Source: Deltaproteobacteria bacterium
GTDB taxonomy: Bacteria > SAR324 > NAC60-12
Reading direction: 5' to 3'
DNA: 35,869 nt
NCBI GenBank assembly: GCA_011522845.1
Contig: WTIF01000164.1
Location: 1 to 35,869, forward strand
A program made the translations under genes and the position numbers. The notes under the pieces are model-generated. The model was given only the letters and a program-made list of their open reading frames with translations, made no database searches and was not told the origin of the DNA. Shown piece by piece: positions 8,910 to 34,556 of the stretch; the first letter of the stretch is position 1, and each line of letters begins with the position of its first letter.

Positions 8910-8916
8910 GGTGTCT

Positions 8917-9327
8917 ATGCCAATCAGAGGTCGATATCTTGCATACGGTGCCCATCAACCCAAGGGATTTAGCCTGATTGAGGTGATGATCGTTGTTGCG
9001 ATCATCGGCATTCTTGCAACCCTGGCTTATCCCAGCCTGGAAGGCTATCTGCAACGAGCCAAGCAAAGCGAAGTCAAGACCAATTTAGCAGCAATCCATA
9101 CGGCAGAAAAACTCTATCATGCCAGTAATGGAAGCTACACCGATGACTTCGCAGCTCTTGGAGTCGGCATTGCAGACGATGCCATTTATAGCTACGGCAT
9201 CACGGCCACCGCCAGTACCTTCACCGCCACGGCAACTGCCAACCTGGATGACGATGCAACTGAAGACACCTGGACCATCAACCAAGACAAGCAATTGGTA
9301 CAAACCACAGACGACCTCGCTGACTAA
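8917..9327 (+). CDS. Type IV prepilin-like protein (N-methylation motif)
   Basis: Short basic leader ending KG followed by [22 protein letters not shown]; class III prepilin signature with Glu5. GTG at 8911 is an alternative start. Confidence 0.9.
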
Positions 9328-10699
9328 TTTTTTATTTCTCCTGTCACTACCGCTACTGCTCTCTGGCTGTCTGGCAAAAACTGTCTACTACTCCGATCCA
9401 CCCAATTCCGAAGCACTACTGCGCACGTCTGCCTTCTCACTAGAGCGTTTCACAGGACGTCAAGCCGGTTTGTTTCGTGATATATTTATTCAAGAAGTCT
9501 ATCGAATCCCTAATTTTGACTATCTGGATGAAGTAAGCGAGACACAACGCGAATACACCGCCCTGGTTGCAGCAGAGGTTGAAATTTTTTCTGTCCGTGA
9601 TGAAGAAGAGACTCGTGGGAATACCAGAATTAATCTACGATCGCGAAATGTGATGGTTCAGGAGCCTGGTCAAGAAATCGCGATCCCCCGACAGGCTTTT
9701 GAGTTCGAAGAAATTCCCTTCAGTGAACGGGTGATGCATCGCACCTTGGATTTGGAGATTCACTTCTCTTTCCTAAACGCTGGGAGCCGACAAGAGCTGT
9801 ACCAGGGAAATGAAAAGATTTCTTTTCAGCAGAGTTACGTAGGAGAAGCAGAGATTTTAGCAATGCCTCCTGCTGACAGCGAAATGATGCGGCTTGGGCG
9901 CTTGCTTGTGCAGCGTATGTTGGATCGACTGAATCCTGTGCAAAAAAATCGCACTCTTGAACTGGAGGTCGGCACCTCTCCTTTGCCTTGGAGTGGTGAT
10001 ACTGTGGACTTGGGGCATCCGGGAATCCTGCAGGCTAACCGCTATGCTGTCAGTGGAGATTATGACCGTGCGCTGAAAGGCTGGAGTTACGTTGTCTTTG
10101 AGCCTGTATCCTTTGGCGAATCCGAACGTTTCACCTTCGGTAGTGAACTCTACACACGATTACGCCAGGCAAGATTACCCCAAGATACGCTCAAAGCTCT
10201 ATTGCGCTTGTATGGAAAATCCTATTCACTGAAAGAGATAGATCCTGTACTGATTGCCCTGCTAGAACGTCAGGACTTTCAGCGCTACAGCGCGATCATC
10301 AAGTTCTACGCCCGCACCTCGCGGCCTCAAGATGGCCAGAATCTAGCGGCTGCACACTTCAACTTGGGCTCTGTGTATCGATTGCAGCAACGGTGGTCAT
10401 TGGCAGCTTATCATTTTGCACAAGCCAACGCCTATCAGCCAGGAATCAAGTATGCGCAAGCCTGGACCGACATGCAAATAGCCGCTGGCAGCTACAATCC
10501 ACTGGATAATTTGGCAGAAAATACTATCGAAGCCGCAGGGACTACATCGCCACCTGAAGATGCCTTGGTGCAGCCTCGTGCTGCCAGCGCTATCATTCAG
10601 CCTGCCAGCCAACCTGCAGAAATGGAGCCCACTCGTATTGAACCAGTGGAACTGCCCTTTCTTTCTGAAGATCCTGAATTTGGTTTGGAAATCAATTAA
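9254..10699 (+). CDS. Lipoprotein with C-terminal TPR-like region; start uncertain
   Basis: Lipobox [14 protein letters not shown], then a long unbroken frame to 10699. Candidate ATGs at 9248/9254 lie inside the prepilin gene; CTG at 9320 is a possible non-canonical start. ORF track start 9119 is probably too far upstream. Confidence 0.75.
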
Positions 10700-10716
10700 A
10701 TCATCCAAGGAGGAAT

Positions 10717-11922
10717 ATGCGTTACCTGATCCTGTTACTGATAGCGACTCTATGTACGAATTTTACGGCATTGGCACGCGAAATCACAGTGACTGGAGTG
10801 GCAACGATTTATGACGAAAATATTGGTGGTGCACGAACTCAGGCCTTGAAAAACGCACAGCGTGAGGCTGTTGAGCAGGGCGTTGGGGCCTATGTTGATG
10901 CAACAACGCTGACCCAGAATTTTGAGGTCATCCGTGATGAAATCTTCAGTGCTAGTCAAGGATTCATCAGGGAATTTCAAGTCTTGCGTGAAGGGCGCTC
11001 CAGTGGGGGGTCAGCCTACGAAGTGGTGATCCGAGCAGATGTCCAGGATAGCCGAATTGTTGATACTCTGACGGCACTCCGGGTGTTGCACCAGAAAATG
11101 GGCAACAAGCGTGTGATGATCGTGTATGCGCCAACCGATCCGAATGCTTTACCCCGCGACATTGGGCCTGTTAGCACAACCTTGTCTGTGATTCGAGATG
11201 AATTCAACCGCATGGGCTTTCGTGTTTTCAATGAGCAGGCGATGGAAGAGGTTTACCGGACGATTGAACAAGCTGCATTGGTAGATCGCCCCGTAGACAA
11301 CCTGATTGCCCTAGCGTTGGATCAGCAGGCGGAAATCCTCGTACGCTTTGAACTAGTCGGTGGCAAACGAGATCAGCGGGGTGGTGTATTCTATGCGACC
11401 AAGGCGACCGTGAGACTCAGTGTCTACGATGCGAACACAGGCCGACAAATTGCTGACGTAGTCACTTATGGTAAGGAACTCTCCGCTAACCGGCCTGGTT
11501 CCTACGACTGGTTCAACATGCTGGGCAAGGCAGGCACTCGAGCTGGTAAAGATGCTGCTCAGGAAGCTATTGATCGAGTGCTGTCCTACTACCAGAGCAT
11601 TGGCGATATCGGCAACGCCTATCTGCTGGTCTTCCGAAATTACAGTATCGAGGAAGAAGATATGATCCTCGACTATCTTGAAAACACTCCGGGATACCAG
11701 CAACTCAGCGAACTCAAAAACACGAATCGCTACATTGAGATCGAGCTATTCTCTTCTGAGGACAAAAGCCGGCTACGACGTCAGATGCGCCGTGATTTAC
11801 AAGAGAGGAATATTCCTCTGGTAGCCCAAGAAGCTACGGGTAACCGCATCGTCTTCCTCAATCCTCGAGCCCCCGCCATCGAAGAAGTAGCTGCACCAGA
11901 GCAGTTGGAAGTACGCCAGTAG
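10717..11922 (+). CDS. Exported protein with FlgT N-terminal-like domain
   Basis: Signal peptide MRYLILLLIATLCTNFTALA, then REITVTGVATIYDENIGGARTQALKNAQREAVEQGVGAYVDATT..., resembling FlgT_N / LPP20-like proteins; AAGGAGG upstream. Confidence 0.72.
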   Translation: MRYLILLLIATLCTNFTALAREITVTGVATIYDENIGGARTQALKNAQREAVEQGVGAYVDATTLTQNFEVIRDEIFSASQGFIREFQVLREGRSSGGSAYEVVIRADVQDSRIVDTLTALRVLHQKMGNKRVMIVYAPTDPNALPRDIGPVSTTLSVIRDEFNRMGFRVFNEQAMEEVYRTIEQAALVDRPVDNLIALALDQQAEILVRFELVGGKRDQRGGVFYATKATVRLSVYDANTGRQIADVVTYGKELSANRPGSYDWFNMLGKAGTRAGKDAAQEAIDRVLSYYQSIGDIGNAYLLVFRNYSIEEEDMILDYLENTPGYQQLSELKNTNRYIEIELFSSEDKSRLRRQMRRDLQERNIPLVAQEATGNRIVFLNPRAPAIEEVAAPEQLEVRQ

Positions 11923-13494: not shown

Positions 13495-13561
13495 TTGATT
13501 ATCCAGACGATCTTTTGGTCGTCTTCCCCCTTTGTCAAGAATGCCGGTTCAAGGAGGCCAA

Positions 13562-16500
13562 ATGCTGCTGTGCCAACGAGCCTTTATCGTGCTCTGTGCC
13601 AGTTATTTGCTGACCCATAGTTGGGCAATTGCACAAGAAAATGAGCAAAGTGAAAAAGCTCTGTCAGAGACCCAGAATGCATTACAGCAGGTTGAGGATG
13701 CGCTTCAGCGTACTGAATCCACAGTACAGGAGGCAGAAACCCAGGCTGCATCTGTACAGTCTGAACTACCAGACACTGCAGCCACTGAAGAGGCCACCAT
13801 TGATCCTGTTGAACTGGCTCGTGATTGGAAAAAAATCTTTGATCAGGCGATGCAGGAATATGAATTTGGAGAACTGGAAAACAGCCTGAACAAGGCTCTA
13901 CAAGCTCGTGAGTTAGCAGATCAACACTTCGGACTGCGAGATGAGCGAACCCTTCGGGCGTATTTACTCCAGGCACTGCTGTATGGAGAACTTGGAGAGC
14001 TGGAAATTGCCAATGAACTCTACCAGGAAACTCTGGTCATCGCCATGGAGCAGCAGGGAACCAACTCCAACATCGTGTTGCAGATTCTTGATCAGTACGG
14101 TGGATTCTTTGCCGAGTTGGGTGAATACGAAATGGCCGATGTCGTTTATGAAAAAGCCTATCTTTTATCTACTGAAGCCTTGGGAGCACAGGATCCCCGA
14201 ACCACTCTGCGCTTACAAACCTTGGCAAACAATGATGCGGAATTGCAGCGCTATGAACTGGCAGAGCAGCGCTTACAGGATGCTCAAGCAACCCTTGTGA
14301 CAGCAGTTGGGGCAGAAGCGTTACCCACAATCAATGTCTTGGAAGACCTAGCGCAGCTCTATCAGCGCCAAGGCAAATTACGTCCTGCTCTAGAACCACT
14401 GGAGCAGAGTTATGCCCTACGCACAAAGGTTCAGGGACCGGAGGAGACACAGACGCTGGAAACCAAGGAACGATTGGCAGAGTTGTATCGACAGTTGGGA
14501 CGTCTCGACGAAGCCGAGCCAATGTTCCTGGAAGTGATCGCAACAGCAGAGCAACTGCTTGGAATTGCAGATCCACTAGTCATCGACGCAAAAAGTCATC
14601 TTGCTCAACTCTACGAAAATACGAATAACTTTGTTGCATCCCTTCGCTATTACCAAGAAGTCTACGAAATCGACCAACAAATTCTTGGTGATGCCCATCC
14701 AAACACAGCAGGTGATCTGAACAATCTGGCTGGCATTTACCGTCGACTTGGCCAGTTGCAGCAATCTGAAGCCACCTATCGGCAGGCACTGCAAGCAATG
14801 AGCGCTGCACTTGGTGAAGGCGCACCTCAGACCATCTCTATCATGAACAACTTGGCTCTTGTTCTAGAAAGCCAAGGACTCTATGACGAAGCAGAACCAC
14901 TCTACCAGAAAGCACTAGCCCTTTCCCAAGTGGAGCAAGGTACAGAGCACCCAACCTCACTGGCGCTCAACAACAACATTGCCATGCTCTATGAAGCACA
15001 GGGAGACTTCAGCCGAGCGGAGCGGACCTATCAGCAAGTCATTGAGCTCAACAAGAAGGTCTTCGGTCCAACTCATCCAAATACGGTTGCCAGCATTAAC
15101 AACTTGGCCTACCTCTACCTGATTGACCAAAAACCAGAACAAGCAGAAACCAATTTTCTCGAAGCTTACGAAATCTGGAAGGAACTCTACGGAGAAAAGC
15201 ACCAGGACACACTCAAGGCGCTTAACAATAGTGGCCGAGTTCAAACACAACTTGGCGAACTGGACCAAGCAGAAGAAACTCTGATTCGCGCCCTTGAACT
15301 GCGTACTGAACTATTCGGAGGGCAGGAACATGAAGATGTGCTACGCAGTATGAATGATCTCGCCTTGCTCTACGCTGAACAAGGTCGTGAAGACGAGGCT
15401 TTGGAACTTTTCCAGGAAACACTTGAGCTACAAGGCCAAGTCCTTGGAGAATTGCATCCTTACACCTTCGAAACTTTGAATAATCTGGCCAATCTCCAAC
15501 AGGAGATGGGAGACCTGGATGATGCCTATGAAACACGGCAGCTGGGCTATCAGCGACGTAACGAATTTCTGAACCGAATCCTCTGGGTAGCTGGTGACAA
15601 TACTCGTCAGTCCTATATCAATCTCTATCGTCCTGAGTTAGATGCTTACATTCGGTTGCTGATTGAATTAGATGACGAACGCACTGCTCGAGATATTTTT
15701 GATATCAGCCTCCGGCGCAAGGGACTGCTACTGAAGATTACCAGTGAAACTCAGCAGGTAGTTCAGATGGCAGACTCTCCCGAGTTGCAAGTTATCACGG
15801 AAGAGTTAACCGCTGCCCGCAAGGAGTTGGCTGCCTTGACACTCTCTGGTCCTACTCCGGAAACTCGTAACAACTTTCCTCAGTTGATCAACGATCTCGA
15901 AAATAAGGTCAACAGCCTTCAACTACGTCTAGGAGAAGCGAGCGCTGTCTTTCGGCAGGCAATTCAGCAGGTCAGTGTTGAAGATGTGCTTGATGCTGTC
16001 GGTGAGGAACACGCACTGGCTGATTTTTTCGCCTATCGTGATGAAAATGATGAGTGGTCACTCTGTGTCATCATCCTGAATGATGGTGAACTCTATTTCT
16101 ACAATTACGAGGAAATGGAGCCATTCAAAGACATGATCATGGAGTTGCGTGACTACATGATGGACGTCACTGTCATTGAGGATGATATCAAACCGATTGC
16201 CCAGGAACTCTATGAACCCCTCTGGGATCCAATCACTGAATTCCTGGAAGACAAAGATTCGATCTTCCTGATCCCGGACAGCGTGCTGAATGTGTTGCCC
16301 TTTGACGCATTGGTTGATTTTGAGGACCAGTATCTGATTGAGACCCTGAATCTGCGGTTAATCAGTTCTGCTCGAGATTTGGTCATCGATCCGCTGGAAC
16401 CTGCTGAGGGCGATGTGCTCATCATTGCGGGCCCAGACTATGATTCCGATGAGATCAGCAACTCTCCAGAAGCTCGTATGGTTGCTTCCAGTAAGCGCTC

Positions 16501-17236
16501 GGCAACAGTAAACTCTGGCATTCGCATGGGTAACGGTCTGCGCGGACTAAACTTCAGTCCTCTTCCTGGAGCTGAGAAGGAAGGTGAAGTGATTGAAGAA
16601 GTTGTGGGCGACAAGGAGCGTAGTACAACCTTTGTCACTCGGGCTGCCGCTGAAGAGAAAGAGTTACGTAGTTACAATGCTGAGAAGGTTCCTGAAATTC
16701 TTCATATTGCGACTCATGGTTTTTTTCTGAAAGAACAGGAACGTCTGGCCAAGCGCATCATGGGCATGCAGCGTGGTAGTCAAAATCCAATCCCACCTCC
16801 AGCAGATAACCCCTTGTTACGCGCTGGCTTGGCCTTCGCCGGTTTGAATCCGAATGCTCCGCTGTTGGGTGAAATCGATACGGACAATGACGGAGTTTTG
16901 ACTGCGATGGAGGTACTCAGCCTAAACTTGACTGGTACTCGACTTGTCATTCTATCCGCTTGTGAGACGGGCCTCGGTGAGATTCATGAAGGTGAAGGGG
17001 TCTATGGTCTACGCCGCTCCTTTCAGGAAGCTGGTGTCGACTCCGTAATCAATTCCTTTTGGGAAGTCTCTGACGATGGTACTCAGCTTCTGATGACCAA
17101 GTTCTACGACAAATACCTGGATGGTATTCCCCCACGGGAAGCCATGCGAGAGGCTCGTCTTGAAATGGTCGAGGACTTCCGCTGGAGCAGCCCTTTCTAT
17201 TGGGGTGCTTTCGCCATGGTTGGTCGTCGCGAATAG
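13562..17236 (+). CDS. Exported TPR-CHAT domain protein (caspase/separase-clan peptidase-like)
   Basis: AAGGAGG at 13551-13557 supports ATG at 13562. Signal peptide MLLCQRAFIVLCASYLLTHSWAIAQ; tandem kinesin-light-chain-type TPRs; C-terminal CHAT with HIATHGFF, LSACETGLGEIHEGEGVYGLRRSFQEAG and SPFYWGAFAMVG. Confidence 0.93.
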   Translation: MLLCQRAFIVLCASYLLTHSWAIAQENEQSEKALSETQNALQQVEDALQRTESTVQEAETQAASVQSELPDTAATEEATIDPVELARDWKKIFDQAMQEYEFGELENSLNKALQARELADQHFGLRDERTLRAYLLQALLYGELGELEIANELYQETLVIAMEQQGTNSNIVLQILDQYGGFFAELGEYEMADVVYEKAYLLSTEALGAQDPRTTLRLQTLANNDAELQRYELAEQRLQDAQATLVTAVGAEALPTINVLEDLAQLYQRQGKLRPALEPLEQSYALRTKVQGPEETQTLETKERLAELYRQLGRLDEAEPMFLEVIATAEQLLGIADPLVIDAKSHLAQLYENTNNFVASLRYYQEVYEIDQQILGDAHPNTAGDLNNLAGIYRRLGQLQQSEATYRQALQAMSAALGEGAPQTISIMNNLALVLESQGLYDEAEPLYQKALALSQVEQGTEHPTSLALNNNIAMLYEAQGDFSRAERTYQQVIELNKKVFGPTHPNTVASINNLAYLYLIDQKPEQAETNFLEAYEIWKELYGEKHQDTLKALNNSGRVQTQLGELDQAEETLIRALELRTELFGGQEHEDVLRSMNDLALLYAEQGREDEALELFQETLELQGQVLGELHPYTFETLNNLANLQQEMGDLDDAYETRQLGYQRRNEFLNRILWVAGDNTRQSYINLYRPELDAYIRLLIELDDERTARDIFDISLRRKGLLLKITSETQQVVQMADSPELQVITEELTAARKELAALTLSGPTPETRNNFPQLINDLENKVNSLQLRLGEASAVFRQAIQQVSVEDVLDAVGEEHALADFFAYRDENDEWSLCVIILNDGELYFYNYEEMEPFKDMIMELRDYMMDVTVIEDDIKPIAQELYEPLWDPITEFLEDKDSIFLIPDSVLNVLPFDALVDFEDQYLIETLNLRLISSARDLVIDPLEPAEGDVLIIAGPDYDSDEISNSPEARMVASSKRSATVNSGIRMGNGLRGLNFSPLPGAEKEGEVIEEVVGDKERSTTFVTRAAAEEKELRSYNAEKVPEILHIATHGFFLKEQERLAKRIMGMQRGSQNPIPPPADNPLLRAGLAFAGLNPNAPLLGEIDTDNDGVLTAMEVLSLNLTGTRLVILSACETGLGEIHEGEGVYGLRRSFQEAGVDSVINSFWEVSDDGTQLLMTKFYDKYLDGIPPREAMREARLEMVEDFRWSSPFYWGAFAMVGRRE
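13850..15560 (+). repeat. Tandem TPR-encoding region (~42-aa, ~126-bp units)
   Basis: Recurring xxxHPxTxxxxNNLAxLYxxxGxxxxAExxxxxAL units in the translated protein. Boundaries approximate. Confidence 0.85.
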
Positions 17237-17251
17237 CTCGTCACTTCTAAT

Positions 17252-17280
17252 ACAGGGAGTACCCTCCACTCCCTGTTTTT
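17252..17280 (+). terminator. Rho-independent terminator after the TPR-CHAT gene
   Basis: ACAGGGAGT-accctcc-ACTCCCTGT, 9-bp perfect stem followed by TTTTTCTCTT. Confidence 0.9.
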
Positions 17281-17433
17281 CTCTTCTCAGTCGGCCTCCT
17301 CAGACTCCTGTTGTCATCTTCTACAGTTCACACATCCTGCGACAAAAGGCCAAAAACTTGCTCAAAATGTTGCTGGAAACAGGCAATCCTGTGATTGTCT
17401 GAAGGCATCGCTCAATCATCACTTGGAATCGTA

Positions 17434-18444
17434 ATGCTGCGCTGGATTGGGAGGATATTGCTACTGGGGCTGATTTCCTTTTTGGGACTAAGCTACTGGA
17501 AACTGGAGCAAATTCGTCAACCCATCAAACCTGAAGAAATCCCACGTTGGCAAGTTCGTGAACTTGATACCGAGCAGTGGGAAATCCAATCTATCAGCGA
17601 TCCTGAACGAAAAACCATTGCCTGGTTTCGAGGAAATCCCCGAGGCCTGCGTTGTGACACTTCCATACTACTCACCGGAGTGAAGCAGGGTAAGAATCTG
17701 CTGGATGGAAGCGCTGTCCTCAATGATCCAGCCAACACTGTAGCGATGGAGCACCCGATTCGGGAGTATGTCAGTAAACAGGTCTGGCTGAGCTATGGGG
17801 CTGCTGAATGGTGGAATGTAGGAGAGTTGATTCGTCTGGAAATGCTCCATACTCTTGGTGCCTTACAAGCGCTGCTTCGTCATACCAACGGCTCTCTAGA
17901 CGGAGATGCTCGCTTCACAGAGCAAGTCGTGCTAGCTGGAGGTAGCTTTGGCGCTCCCTTCACTGCGGCTCTCGCCAGCTTGGAGAATGAGAACGTTTCG
18001 GGACTATTGCTGATTTATGCGTTCACAGATTTTGAAGGACTCTTTAACCGTGAGTTTGTCCGTCAAGGCCGCATTCATTACAAAATGCCTTCGGAACCGG
18101 AAGGACTGGTCGCTTGGAGTAAGGATCTTGGACTACGAGCGCTGGCAGGCAGCCTTGCCTGGTTCCTCTCAACGCTTTTAGAATACGGTGAAATGGAAGC
18201 CTATCTACCCAATATTCGGAATACTCCCATCCACTTCATCAATGGTCGTGACGACCGCCTTGCCCCGCAAGCCTCCTACGATCTACTCTGGAGTGCTGCA
18301 CCAGAACCAAAGTCTGAACTCTGGCTGCCAGGAGACCACATCAATCCTGGAGATCCTGTGGCGCTGCTGCAGGTCTCTGAATATATGTACGAATGGGGGA
18401 AGGCTCAAGGTCTGCGAGATTGTGAGGAATTCGACTCCCAATGA
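17434..18444 (+). CDS. Alpha/beta hydrolase-fold protein with N-terminal membrane anchor
   Basis: N-terminal TM (MLRWIGRILLLGLISFLGLSYW); nucleophile elbow LAGGSFGAP; INGRDDRLAP acid region; LPGDHINPG histidine region. ORF track start at 17395 is TTG; ATG at 17434 preferred. Confidence 0.78.
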   Translation: MLRWIGRILLLGLISFLGLSYWKLEQIRQPIKPEEIPRWQVRELDTEQWEIQSISDPERKTIAWFRGNPRGLRCDTSILLTGVKQGKNLLDGSAVLNDPANTVAMEHPIREYVSKQVWLSYGAAEWWNVGELIRLEMLHTLGALQALLRHTNGSLDGDARFTEQVVLAGGSFGAPFTAALASLENENVSGLLLIYAFTDFEGLFNREFVRQGRIHYKMPSEPEGLVAWSKDLGLRALAGSLAWFLSTLLEYGEMEAYLPNIRNTPIHFINGRDDRLAPQASYDLLWSAAPEPKSELWLPGDHINPGDPVALLQVSEYMYEWGKAQGLRDCEEFDSQ

Positions 18445-32827: not shown

Positions 32828-34105
32828 TCAGCGAAGCCCGATCACTGGTAATTCCGACCATTGAGTGGTGTAACGTGGGGATCGATGTTGCTGGAGCGGC
32901 AAACCTTTGGTCGCCGTCAGGGTGTGAGCCAACTGTAGCACACTACGTCCCCAACGTTGCTGGAGCCCTGTGATGGCTTGCTGAAGTTCTGCTCTCGGTT
33001 GCCACGCCGTGTCCATATTCCAGGAAGGCTGATCGGGTTCCAGACCAAAGAGCATTACCCCGCAGCGGGTATAGGCCACACCCGAGCGATAGGCTTGTTG
33101 CAATAATGTAAAGGCACAACGTTGGAGTTCCCACAGATCATCTGTTGGCTCGATGACCGCTTGTCGGCTACCGAAATAGCGAACTTCTCTGTGAAAACGA
33201 CTGGTGTGTAGAAAGACCTGGATTCCACTTGCCCTCAAATGATGCCTACGCAAATGCTCCCAGCCACGTTGCAGATATCGTCCAAGAGCTGGACGCAATT
33301 CTGTCAGCTGGTACAGCGGTTGACCAAAGGAACGACTACGCACCAGTGAACGCGGTGGTGGGCTAGTTTCTTCCAAGGAGAGGCAGGACTCTCCACGTAG
33401 TTCCAAAGCGATTCGCTGCAATACCACATTGGCGACAAGCCGGATCATTGCAGGATCAGCAGCTGCCAAGTCTGCAGCATTCTGCCAACCTTCGGTTTCC
33501 AAACGTCTTGCCCAACGCCTGCCAATGCCCCAGACGTCGGTCAATGGGGTCACTGAAAGCTGCTGTTGACGGGTTTCTGGATCTTCTGGCATGGACCAAA
33601 TCCCTGCGGCTTCCTTGCGCCGTTTGGCCTGTCGATTGGCCAACTTGGCCAGTACCTTCGTTGATGCTAACCCAATCGAAACGGGGATACCAGTATCGCG
33701 CAGGACACGAGCCCGCAATTGTCGAGCGAAGGCTTCTCGCTCTGTCTGTTTCCTACCGGGAATTTCGACGAAGGCTTCATCGATTGAGTAACGTTCCACT
33801 CGTGGACACTGAGCCTCCAGCGTTTGCATCACCCGCTGGCTGAAATCTCCGTAGAGTGGATAGTTGCTGCTGAAAACAACAGCCCCAGCCCGACGCAACT
33901 CTGGTCCACACTGAAAGTAGGGAGTCCCCATCGCTACCCCCAATTGCTTGACCTCCTCACTGCGGGCGATCACGCAACCATCGTTGTTGCTGAGGACAGC
34001 TACTGGAACTTTTGCTAAGTCGGGCCGAAAGACTCGCTCACAGGAAACGTAGAAATTGTTACAATCAACCAGCGCTAGGCAGGGATCAGAGCTTGTGGAT
34101 GACAT
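32828..34105 (-). CDS. umuC: DNA polymerase V catalytic subunit (Y-family)
   Basis: 425 aa; ALVDCNNFYVSCERVFRPDLAKVPVAVLSNNDGCVIARSEEVKQLGV, VERYSIDEAFVEIPG, VTPLTDVWGIGRRWARRLETEGW. Confidence 0.96.
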   Translation of the reverse strand: MSSTSSDPCLALVDCNNFYVSCERVFRPDLAKVPVAVLSNNDGCVIARSEEVKQLGVAMGTPYFQCGPELRRAGAVVFSSNYPLYGDFSQRVMQTLEAQCPRVERYSIDEAFVEIPGRKQTEREAFARQLRARVLRDTGIPVSIGLASTKVLAKLANRQAKRRKEAAGIWSMPEDPETRQQQLSVTPLTDVWGIGRRWARRLETEGWQNAADLAAADPAMIRLVANVVLQRIALELRGESCLSLEETSPPPRSLVRSRSFGQPLYQLTELRPALGRYLQRGWEHLRRHHLRASGIQVFLHTSRFHREVRYFGSRQAVIEPTDDLWELQRCAFTLLQQAYRSGVAYTRCGVMLFGLEPDQPSWNMDTAWQPRAELQQAITGLQQRWGRSVLQLAHTLTATKGLPLQQHRSPRYTTQWSELPVIGLR

Positions 34106-34556
34106 AGGTCACCACCCCCCAGACAGCAAAGGCATCATCCACCGTCACTTGGATGGATTCATAATTTTCGTTTTCTGGACGCAACTCGATCTGACCTCCA
34201 TCCTGCCAAAGCCGCTTGAGGGTAAATTCTCCATGCAGCGAAGCGATCACAATCCGGCCTTTACGTTGCTCGATTGACCGATCCACTACCAGCAGGTCTC
34301 CATCGAAGATTCCAGCTTGGATCATTGAATCTCCAGCTGCTCGGACAAAGAATGTTGAGGTGGGATGGGGAATCAGGTGCTCATTTAGATCCAAGCGTCC
34401 TTCCAGATGATCTTCTGCCGGTGAAGGAAAACCTGCAGAGACTCCCATACTGAAGATGGGCAGTGAGCGTTCGGCACCAATTTCCAAGCCATGTATTGAA
34501 GCGATGCTACCATCCGTGACCAATGGACGACGGCGTGGAAGAACGGAAATCGACAT
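34086..34556 (-). CDS. umuD: UmuD, LexA/S24-like autoprotease
   Basis: 156 aa; Ala-Gly cleavage region VSAGFPSPAED, catalytic Ser FFVRAAGDSMIQAGIFDGDLLVVD, Lys segment LHGEFTLKRL; 20-bp overlap with umuC. Confidence 0.95.
   Translation of the reverse strand: MSISVLPRRRPLVTDGSIASIHGLEIGAERSLPIFSMGVSAGFPSPAEDHLEGRLDLNEHLIPHPTSTFFVRAAGDSMIQAGIFDGDLLVVDRSIEQRKGRIVIASLHGEFTLKRLWQDGGQIELRPENENYESIQVTVDDAFAVWGVVTYVIHKL

Follow-up and report, generated by a model that had tools for sequence, protein, structure and literature searches.

A gene in the 35,869-nucleotide stretch of DNA analyzed here (the window) encodes a protein that is best explained, with a probability of roughly 0.6, as a stand-alone exported cysteine peptidase of the CHAT fold, which would be targeted by an arm of tetratricopeptide repeats (TPRs) and whose active-site linker probably binds Ca2+. 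Read from its sequence, the protein combines a predicted export signal, a defined domain order, a catalytic dyad and a conserved loop, and it is independent of CRISPR and of fixed neighbours. Its distinctive feature is a conserved EF-hand-type loop within the active-site linker, which was absent from the original prediction for this DNA.

Domain architecture and distribution

The reading frame joins an N-terminal signal, a long TPR solenoid and a C-terminal CHAT domain (Table 1). Its ATG was preferred over an upstream TTG at 13532 because of the Shine-Dalgarno-like sequence in front of it. In Pfam searches, TPR_12 scored 308 bits across nine stretches of the 1224-residue protein. The repeats match KLC1 and KLC2 (best E value 7.5e-30) and share about 30% identity with kinesin light chain 1. 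The TPRs of kinesin light chains bind linear peptides, as is generally known and reflected in PDB entry titles. The CHAT domain scored 235 bits, where the cut-off is 24, and covered 288 of 289 profile positions (2–289), which excludes an assignment by chance. Pfam and NCBIfam matches of the window protein included no anti-sigma or transmembrane domain, the N-terminal signal being the only such element.

Table 1. Position and basis of the features assigned to the TPR-CHAT gene, in window coordinates
Feature	Position	Strand	Basis
Shine-Dalgarno-like AAGGAGG	13551..13557	+	Direct reading; 4 nt upstream of ATG 13562
TPR-CHAT gene, 1224 aa	13562..17236	+	Open reading frame, ATG 13562 to stop 17236
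Predicted Sec (type I) signal peptide, residues 1-24, cleavage AIA/Q	13562..13633	+	Sequence; ortholog conservation
Predicted coiled-coil-like N-terminal helix, window's genus only	13640..13744	+	Model, low pLDDT
TPR solenoid, kinesin-light-chain type, about 14 helix pairs, residues 82-673	13805..15580	+	Pfam; KLC1/KLC2 matches; model
Helical linker joining TPR and CHAT, residues 679-813	15596..16000	+	Model
CHAT domain (PF12770), residues 878-1222	16193..17227	+	Pfam; fold match to Csx29 and separase
Catalytic His1052 (HIATHG)	16715..16717	+	Invariant in orthologs and 22 diverse CHATs
EF-hand-type loop DTDNDGVLTAME, residues 1106-1117, between His and Cys	16877..16912	+	Ortholog comparison
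Catalytic Cys1134 (LSACETG)	16961..16963	+	Invariant; sole conserved Cys column of the ortholog alignment
Terminator-like hairpin and T tail, directly 3' of the stop	17252..17276	+	Hairpin search; count of such hairpins in the region close to shuffled expectation

About 30 genomes from the same phylum-level group carry orthologs, in which the signal peptide and the dyad are kept and the neighbourhood is not. When 58 relatives were searched with the CHAT region, close matches came from the same genus (97–99%), from further genera of its family (66–69%) and from a different family within the class (about 53%). Over their whole length, 18 full-length orthologs are 38–99% identical to the window protein. 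Some CHAT protein occurs in 36 of 52 genomes of the phylum-level group and in none of the ten f2 genomes. The CHAT search gave no match in the phyla of G052 and G057, where control queries were silent as well. The window genome contains a second CHAT (contig C146), of which only a C-terminal fragment is present at a contig end.

Export signals in CHAT proteins

In the N-terminus, MLLCQRAFIVLCASYLLTHSWAIA followed by QE, a positively charged n-region precedes a hydrophobic stretch, and the cleavage site is of the A-x-A type. Every ortholog whose N-terminus is complete likewise starts with a predicted Sec signal of typical form but diverged sequence, which bears out the signal peptide of the original prediction. 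Retention of the signal while the sequence diverges, with identity down to 38%, supports export, and the mature protein would be located in the periplasm or on the cell surface. This call combines conservation with a crude, home-made Sec-signal test rather than SignalP. A coiled-coil segment had also been described and is indeed present (approximately residues 27–61, in a low-confidence part of the model), but it is restricted to the window's genus; orthologs from other genera pass from the signal peptide directly into the TPRs. The coiled coil was therefore rejected as a functional element.

A survey of signal peptides among CHAT proteins, which the original prediction had proposed, revealed that export is not distinctive of the window protein. 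The Sec test was positive for 33 of 49 other CHATs versus 14 of 128 neighbouring proteins (5'-complete genes), the CHAT rate being somewhat inflated by the use of several starts per protein and a 100-codon window, against 40 codons for the background. Within the protein's own phylum, 11 of 14 paralogs were positive; the corresponding figures were 8 of 20 for the G055 phylum and 14 of 15 for the G056 phylum. Signal peptides are also clear by eye in the CHAT proteins of Leptolyngbya boryana (WP_017292126.1) and Nostoc sp. UHCC 0302 (WP_341531788.1), and DdvA, a CHAT protein with a solved structure, is described as transmembrane. The contrast once drawn between an exported enzyme here and cytoplasmic ones elsewhere was thus overstated: an exported TPR-CHAT protein is nothing rare, although most such proteins are uncharacterized.

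Several signal-peptide proteins in the survey are very large. L199, L200 and L201, from the phylum of G056, span about 2600–2700 residues, and L200, the one of the three that was scanned, has a PD40/TolB-like propeller together with numerous TPRs and ends in a CHAT domain. Proteins of similar length are found in many other genomes of the phylum.

A conserved EF-hand-type loop in the active-site linker

Between the catalytic His and Cys, DTDNDGVLTAME conforms to a full EF-hand-type loop, with D1, D3, D5, G6, the backbone position V7, T9 and E12. The canonical form (Dx[DN]xDG plus E12) is present in 30 of 31 orthologs, while its codons drift between the synonymous GAT and GAC; among these 30, position 3 shows a single Asp-to-Asn change, which the motif permits. 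The 31st ortholog (L165) reads DGANDG and has lost ligand 3. None of 49 other CHATs whose frames are readable and 5'-complete, L165 counted among them, has the canonical loop, and the orthologs that carry it form one clade with a support of 0.993. Sister paralogs contain acidic, non-canonical loops (REDGSDG and QKDNSDG). A half motif, DG-x-L-T-A-x-E, is widespread in CHATs, so the EF clade has added the first two ligands to a pre-existing half. As a caution, a single chance origin of Dx[DN]xDG among tens of lineages would not be improbable, and it is retention that argues for function. A non-orthologous CHAT with a short linker (L089, G110:C30) has DQDNDG between His and Cys and is an independent candidate for such a loop.

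Clan CD includes calcium-dependent members, such as metacaspases, clostripain and gingipains, which makes a role for Ca2+ reasonable. Proteins with the Dx[DN]xDG motif are biased to periplasmic, cell-surface or secreted locations (PMC3123361), and the window loop, for which binding is predicted, has the linear motif, E12 and the extracytoplasmic setting in common with these calcium loops. A text search of the same paper gave no mention of CHAT, caspase or peptidase contexts. Judged by its sequence, we consider the chances that the loop binds Ca2+ to be evenly balanced.

The closest competitor, with somewhat less than even odds, is the same exported TPR-CHAT peptidase with a metal-free loop, in which DxDxDG would be an acidic variant of the CHAT linker that serves folding or substrate binding. 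The non-ligand positions N4, L8 and A10 are as invariant as the ligands, so that the whole block is conserved, and the half motif is general to CHATs, including those without the two extra Asp; conservation of the loop therefore need not mean metal binding. The acidic sister loops and the loss of ligand 3 in L165 point in the same direction. Against a metal-free loop, both added Asp are fixed in 30 of 30 orthologs, apart from the one Asn, despite codon drift; furthermore, all ligand positions including E12 fit the EF consensus, and an extracytoplasmic location suits Ca2+ binding. That Ca2+ also controls activity is a tentative proposal. A slightly bolder version is doubtful to much the same degree: a Ca2+-gated extracellular caspase-like protease, whose EF-type switch would be silent in the low-Ca2+ cytoplasm and turned on at seawater-level Ca2+, with the TPR arm picking the target.

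Catalytic dyad and structural relatives

Both dyad motifs, H-x-A-x-H-G and S-A-C, are present, and the two residues lie exactly where the original prediction had placed them. Its description of an intact-looking CHAT domain likewise agrees with the profile coverage and with the invariance of His and Cys in orthologs and in 22 diverse CHATs. In most orthologs that belong to the same family but to genera other than that of the window, no Cys apart from the catalytic one occurs beyond the signal region. Few cysteines, of which only the catalytic one is conserved, fit an exported thiol enzyme. Proteolytic activity of the window protein is likely. A non-catalytic exported scaffold or receptor, in which the CHAT domain would be a binding module and the TPRs would do the work, is an unlikely alternative: strict invariance of both dyad residues over deep divergence and the absence of most other cysteines argue against it, even though no CHAT outside CRISPR systems was found that has been demonstrated to be an exported active protease, and the catalytic geometry is modelled at low confidence.

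The AlphaFold2 model of the mature protein (mean pLDDT 79.9) consists of 28 helices in about 14 TPR pairs, mostly with pLDDT above 80, a helical linker and the CHAT core. Beside the catalytic residues, pLDDT falls below 50 (mature residues 1028–1087 and 1109–1123); in both models, the residues flanking His and Cys likewise stay under 50, with values of about 30–40 in the His–Cys linker including the loop. Near position 10, where an EF-hand loop would pass into its outgoing helix, the model has a short helix (mature residues 1090–1094, full-length 1115–1119) of only moderate pLDDT, and the loop remains below 50. The models match a caspase-like fold, but the stretches that would define the catalytic geometry, and with it the geometry of a putative Ca2+ site, are modelled at low confidence.

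In fold searches, the C-terminal model best matched Csx29/TPR-CHAT (7zoq, E = 3.4e-12), followed by separase, DdvA, RgpB and SAVED-CHAT; the full model matched separase first, with Csx29, DdvA and KLC1 close behind. A PDB sequence search with the CHAT part alone returned nothing significant, and a profile of diverse CHATs found Csx29 chains and DdvA (8rot_B, 6.6e-10, "CHAT domain-containing protein"). The peptidase reading is supported by these matches, since Csx29 (E 3e-12), separase and RgpB are all peptidases. Separase and the gingipain RgpB, both of clan CD, share the caspase-like catalytic fold with the window model; gingipains are secreted, and separase bears a long helical arm like that of the window protein, but no sequence-level similarity was detected, and arms and substrates differ. 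Csx29 of the type III-E Craspase (PDB 8eey, 7y8t) likewise has a TPR arm followed by a CHAT domain with a His/Cys dyad. It is cytoplasmic and found with Cas7-11, whereas the window protein is predicted to be exported and has a longer TPR arm, the EF-type loop and no CRISPR partner. The catalytic residues of Csx29 are mispositioned until an allosteric trigger arrives (PMC10028731), and similar control of the window protein is plausible by analogy. The exported Leptolyngbya and Nostoc CHATs, the former annotated also as a TPR protein, resemble the window protein in signal peptide and dyad, but their His–Cys linker is short and lacks the EF-type loop.

DdvA (PDB 8rot, 8rw5), a described transmembrane anti-sigma factor, has a CHAT domain by profile search and a fold similar to the window model, and Csx29 cleaves a sigma-factor inhibitor (PMC10028731). 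Both would suit a DdvA-like periplasmic stress sensor acting on a signalling partner anchored in the membrane, for instance an anti-sigma factor or a histidine kinase. However, the window protein has a predicted cleavable signal and no transmembrane or anti-sigma segment, and no conserved neighbour encodes one, which leaves this role improbable.

Gene context and inheritance

The window gave no Rfam match and a search of the entire genome no Cas1, as expected from the original claim that the protein has no CRISPR partner. Among 12 genomes with an ortholog that were checked, that of the window included, 8 lacked Cas1. A CRISPR link was rejected on these grounds, and a defence system because the defence library gave only weak TPR-model matches. 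A Craspase-like CRISPR or phage-defence effector is thus extremely improbable, although the fold is closest to Csx29, given also the predicted export, vertical inheritance and lack of defence neighbours. Export, the apparently intact dyad and CRISPR independence, as predicted from sequence, together suggest that trigger and substrate differ from those of Craspase, a point on which the earlier reading was supported.

The gene lies downstream of lpd and directly upstream of a gene for a 349-residue protein (17395–18444) with weak alpha/beta-hydrolase similarity, an arrangement that is kept within the genus only. An operon with either gene was rejected since adjacency is lost outside the genus; in other genera, the TPR-CHAT gene is found elsewhere, next to housekeeping genes. 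For example, gene F14, located 3' of four orthologs, looks on sequence inspection like a MiaB/MtaB-type tRNA-modifying enzyme, which indicates housekeeping synteny. Conservation of neighbours in the genus only argues against a dedicated partner, and no substrate or partner gene co-travels with the orthologs. The TPR-CHAT gene is stand-alone and vertically inherited.

Proposed mechanism and significance

As an exported peptidase, the protein would leave the cell via Sec and fold outside the cytoplasm, where the groove of its kinesin-light-chain-like TPRs (about 14 repeats) could bind a peptide or protein partner; the TPR arm is probably a receptor for the substrate or the trigger. By analogy with the TPR part of Csx29, the arm may position or unlock the C-terminal CHAT domain, whose dyad would then cleave the bound partner or a neighbour. 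The flexible His–Cys linker would be a natural control point, again by analogy with Csx29. The EF-type loop likely takes up Ca2+ from the Ca2+-rich surroundings of marine cells, so that the active site would become ordered only after export; alternatively, Ca2+ may simply be stabilizing.

In the literature searched, cytoplasmic, CRISPR-linked Csx29 was the only CHAT found with described proteolysis; in contrast, many of the sampled CHATs bear export signals. The EF clade offers a testable entry to them: a single gene that has no fixed partner and encodes an intact dyad, one conserved Cys and a discrete loop that predicts Ca2+ dependence. If confirmed, it would provide a CHAT protease with a built-in Ca2+ site and would tie bacterial relatives of caspases to extracytoplasmic functions, rather than to cell death or CRISPR.

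Additional loci in the window and in other genomes

One further TPR-CHAT locus and one candidate lie near Cas1 sequences. In G043:C68, a 2424-residue exported TPR-CHAT paralog (L146) shares its contig with a short Cas1-like match at a distance of about 19 kb. On the Anabaena cylindrica plasmid pANACY.01 (L206, 1–5205), the TPR protein WP_015217670.1, matched by the CHAT-region query, starts without a signal peptide and lies about 1.4 kb from a gene for a 668-residue Cas1, from which a DUF4384 gene separates it; it is possibly another CRISPR-adjacent TPR-CHAT.

Within the window, a type IV pilin-like gene (N_methyl, ComP/PilA-type; 8911–9327) is situated between nuoN and the gene of a probable TPR lipoprotein. 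The latter, whose frame opens at 9119 and whose lipoprotein-like signal begins further in, is followed by an exported FlgT_N-like/LipL46-like protein (9290–11922 for both), and the pair is kept in the genus. Finally, an overlapping pair at 32828–34556 encodes a UmuC/ImpB-type polymerase and an S24 (UmuD/LexA-like) peptidase.
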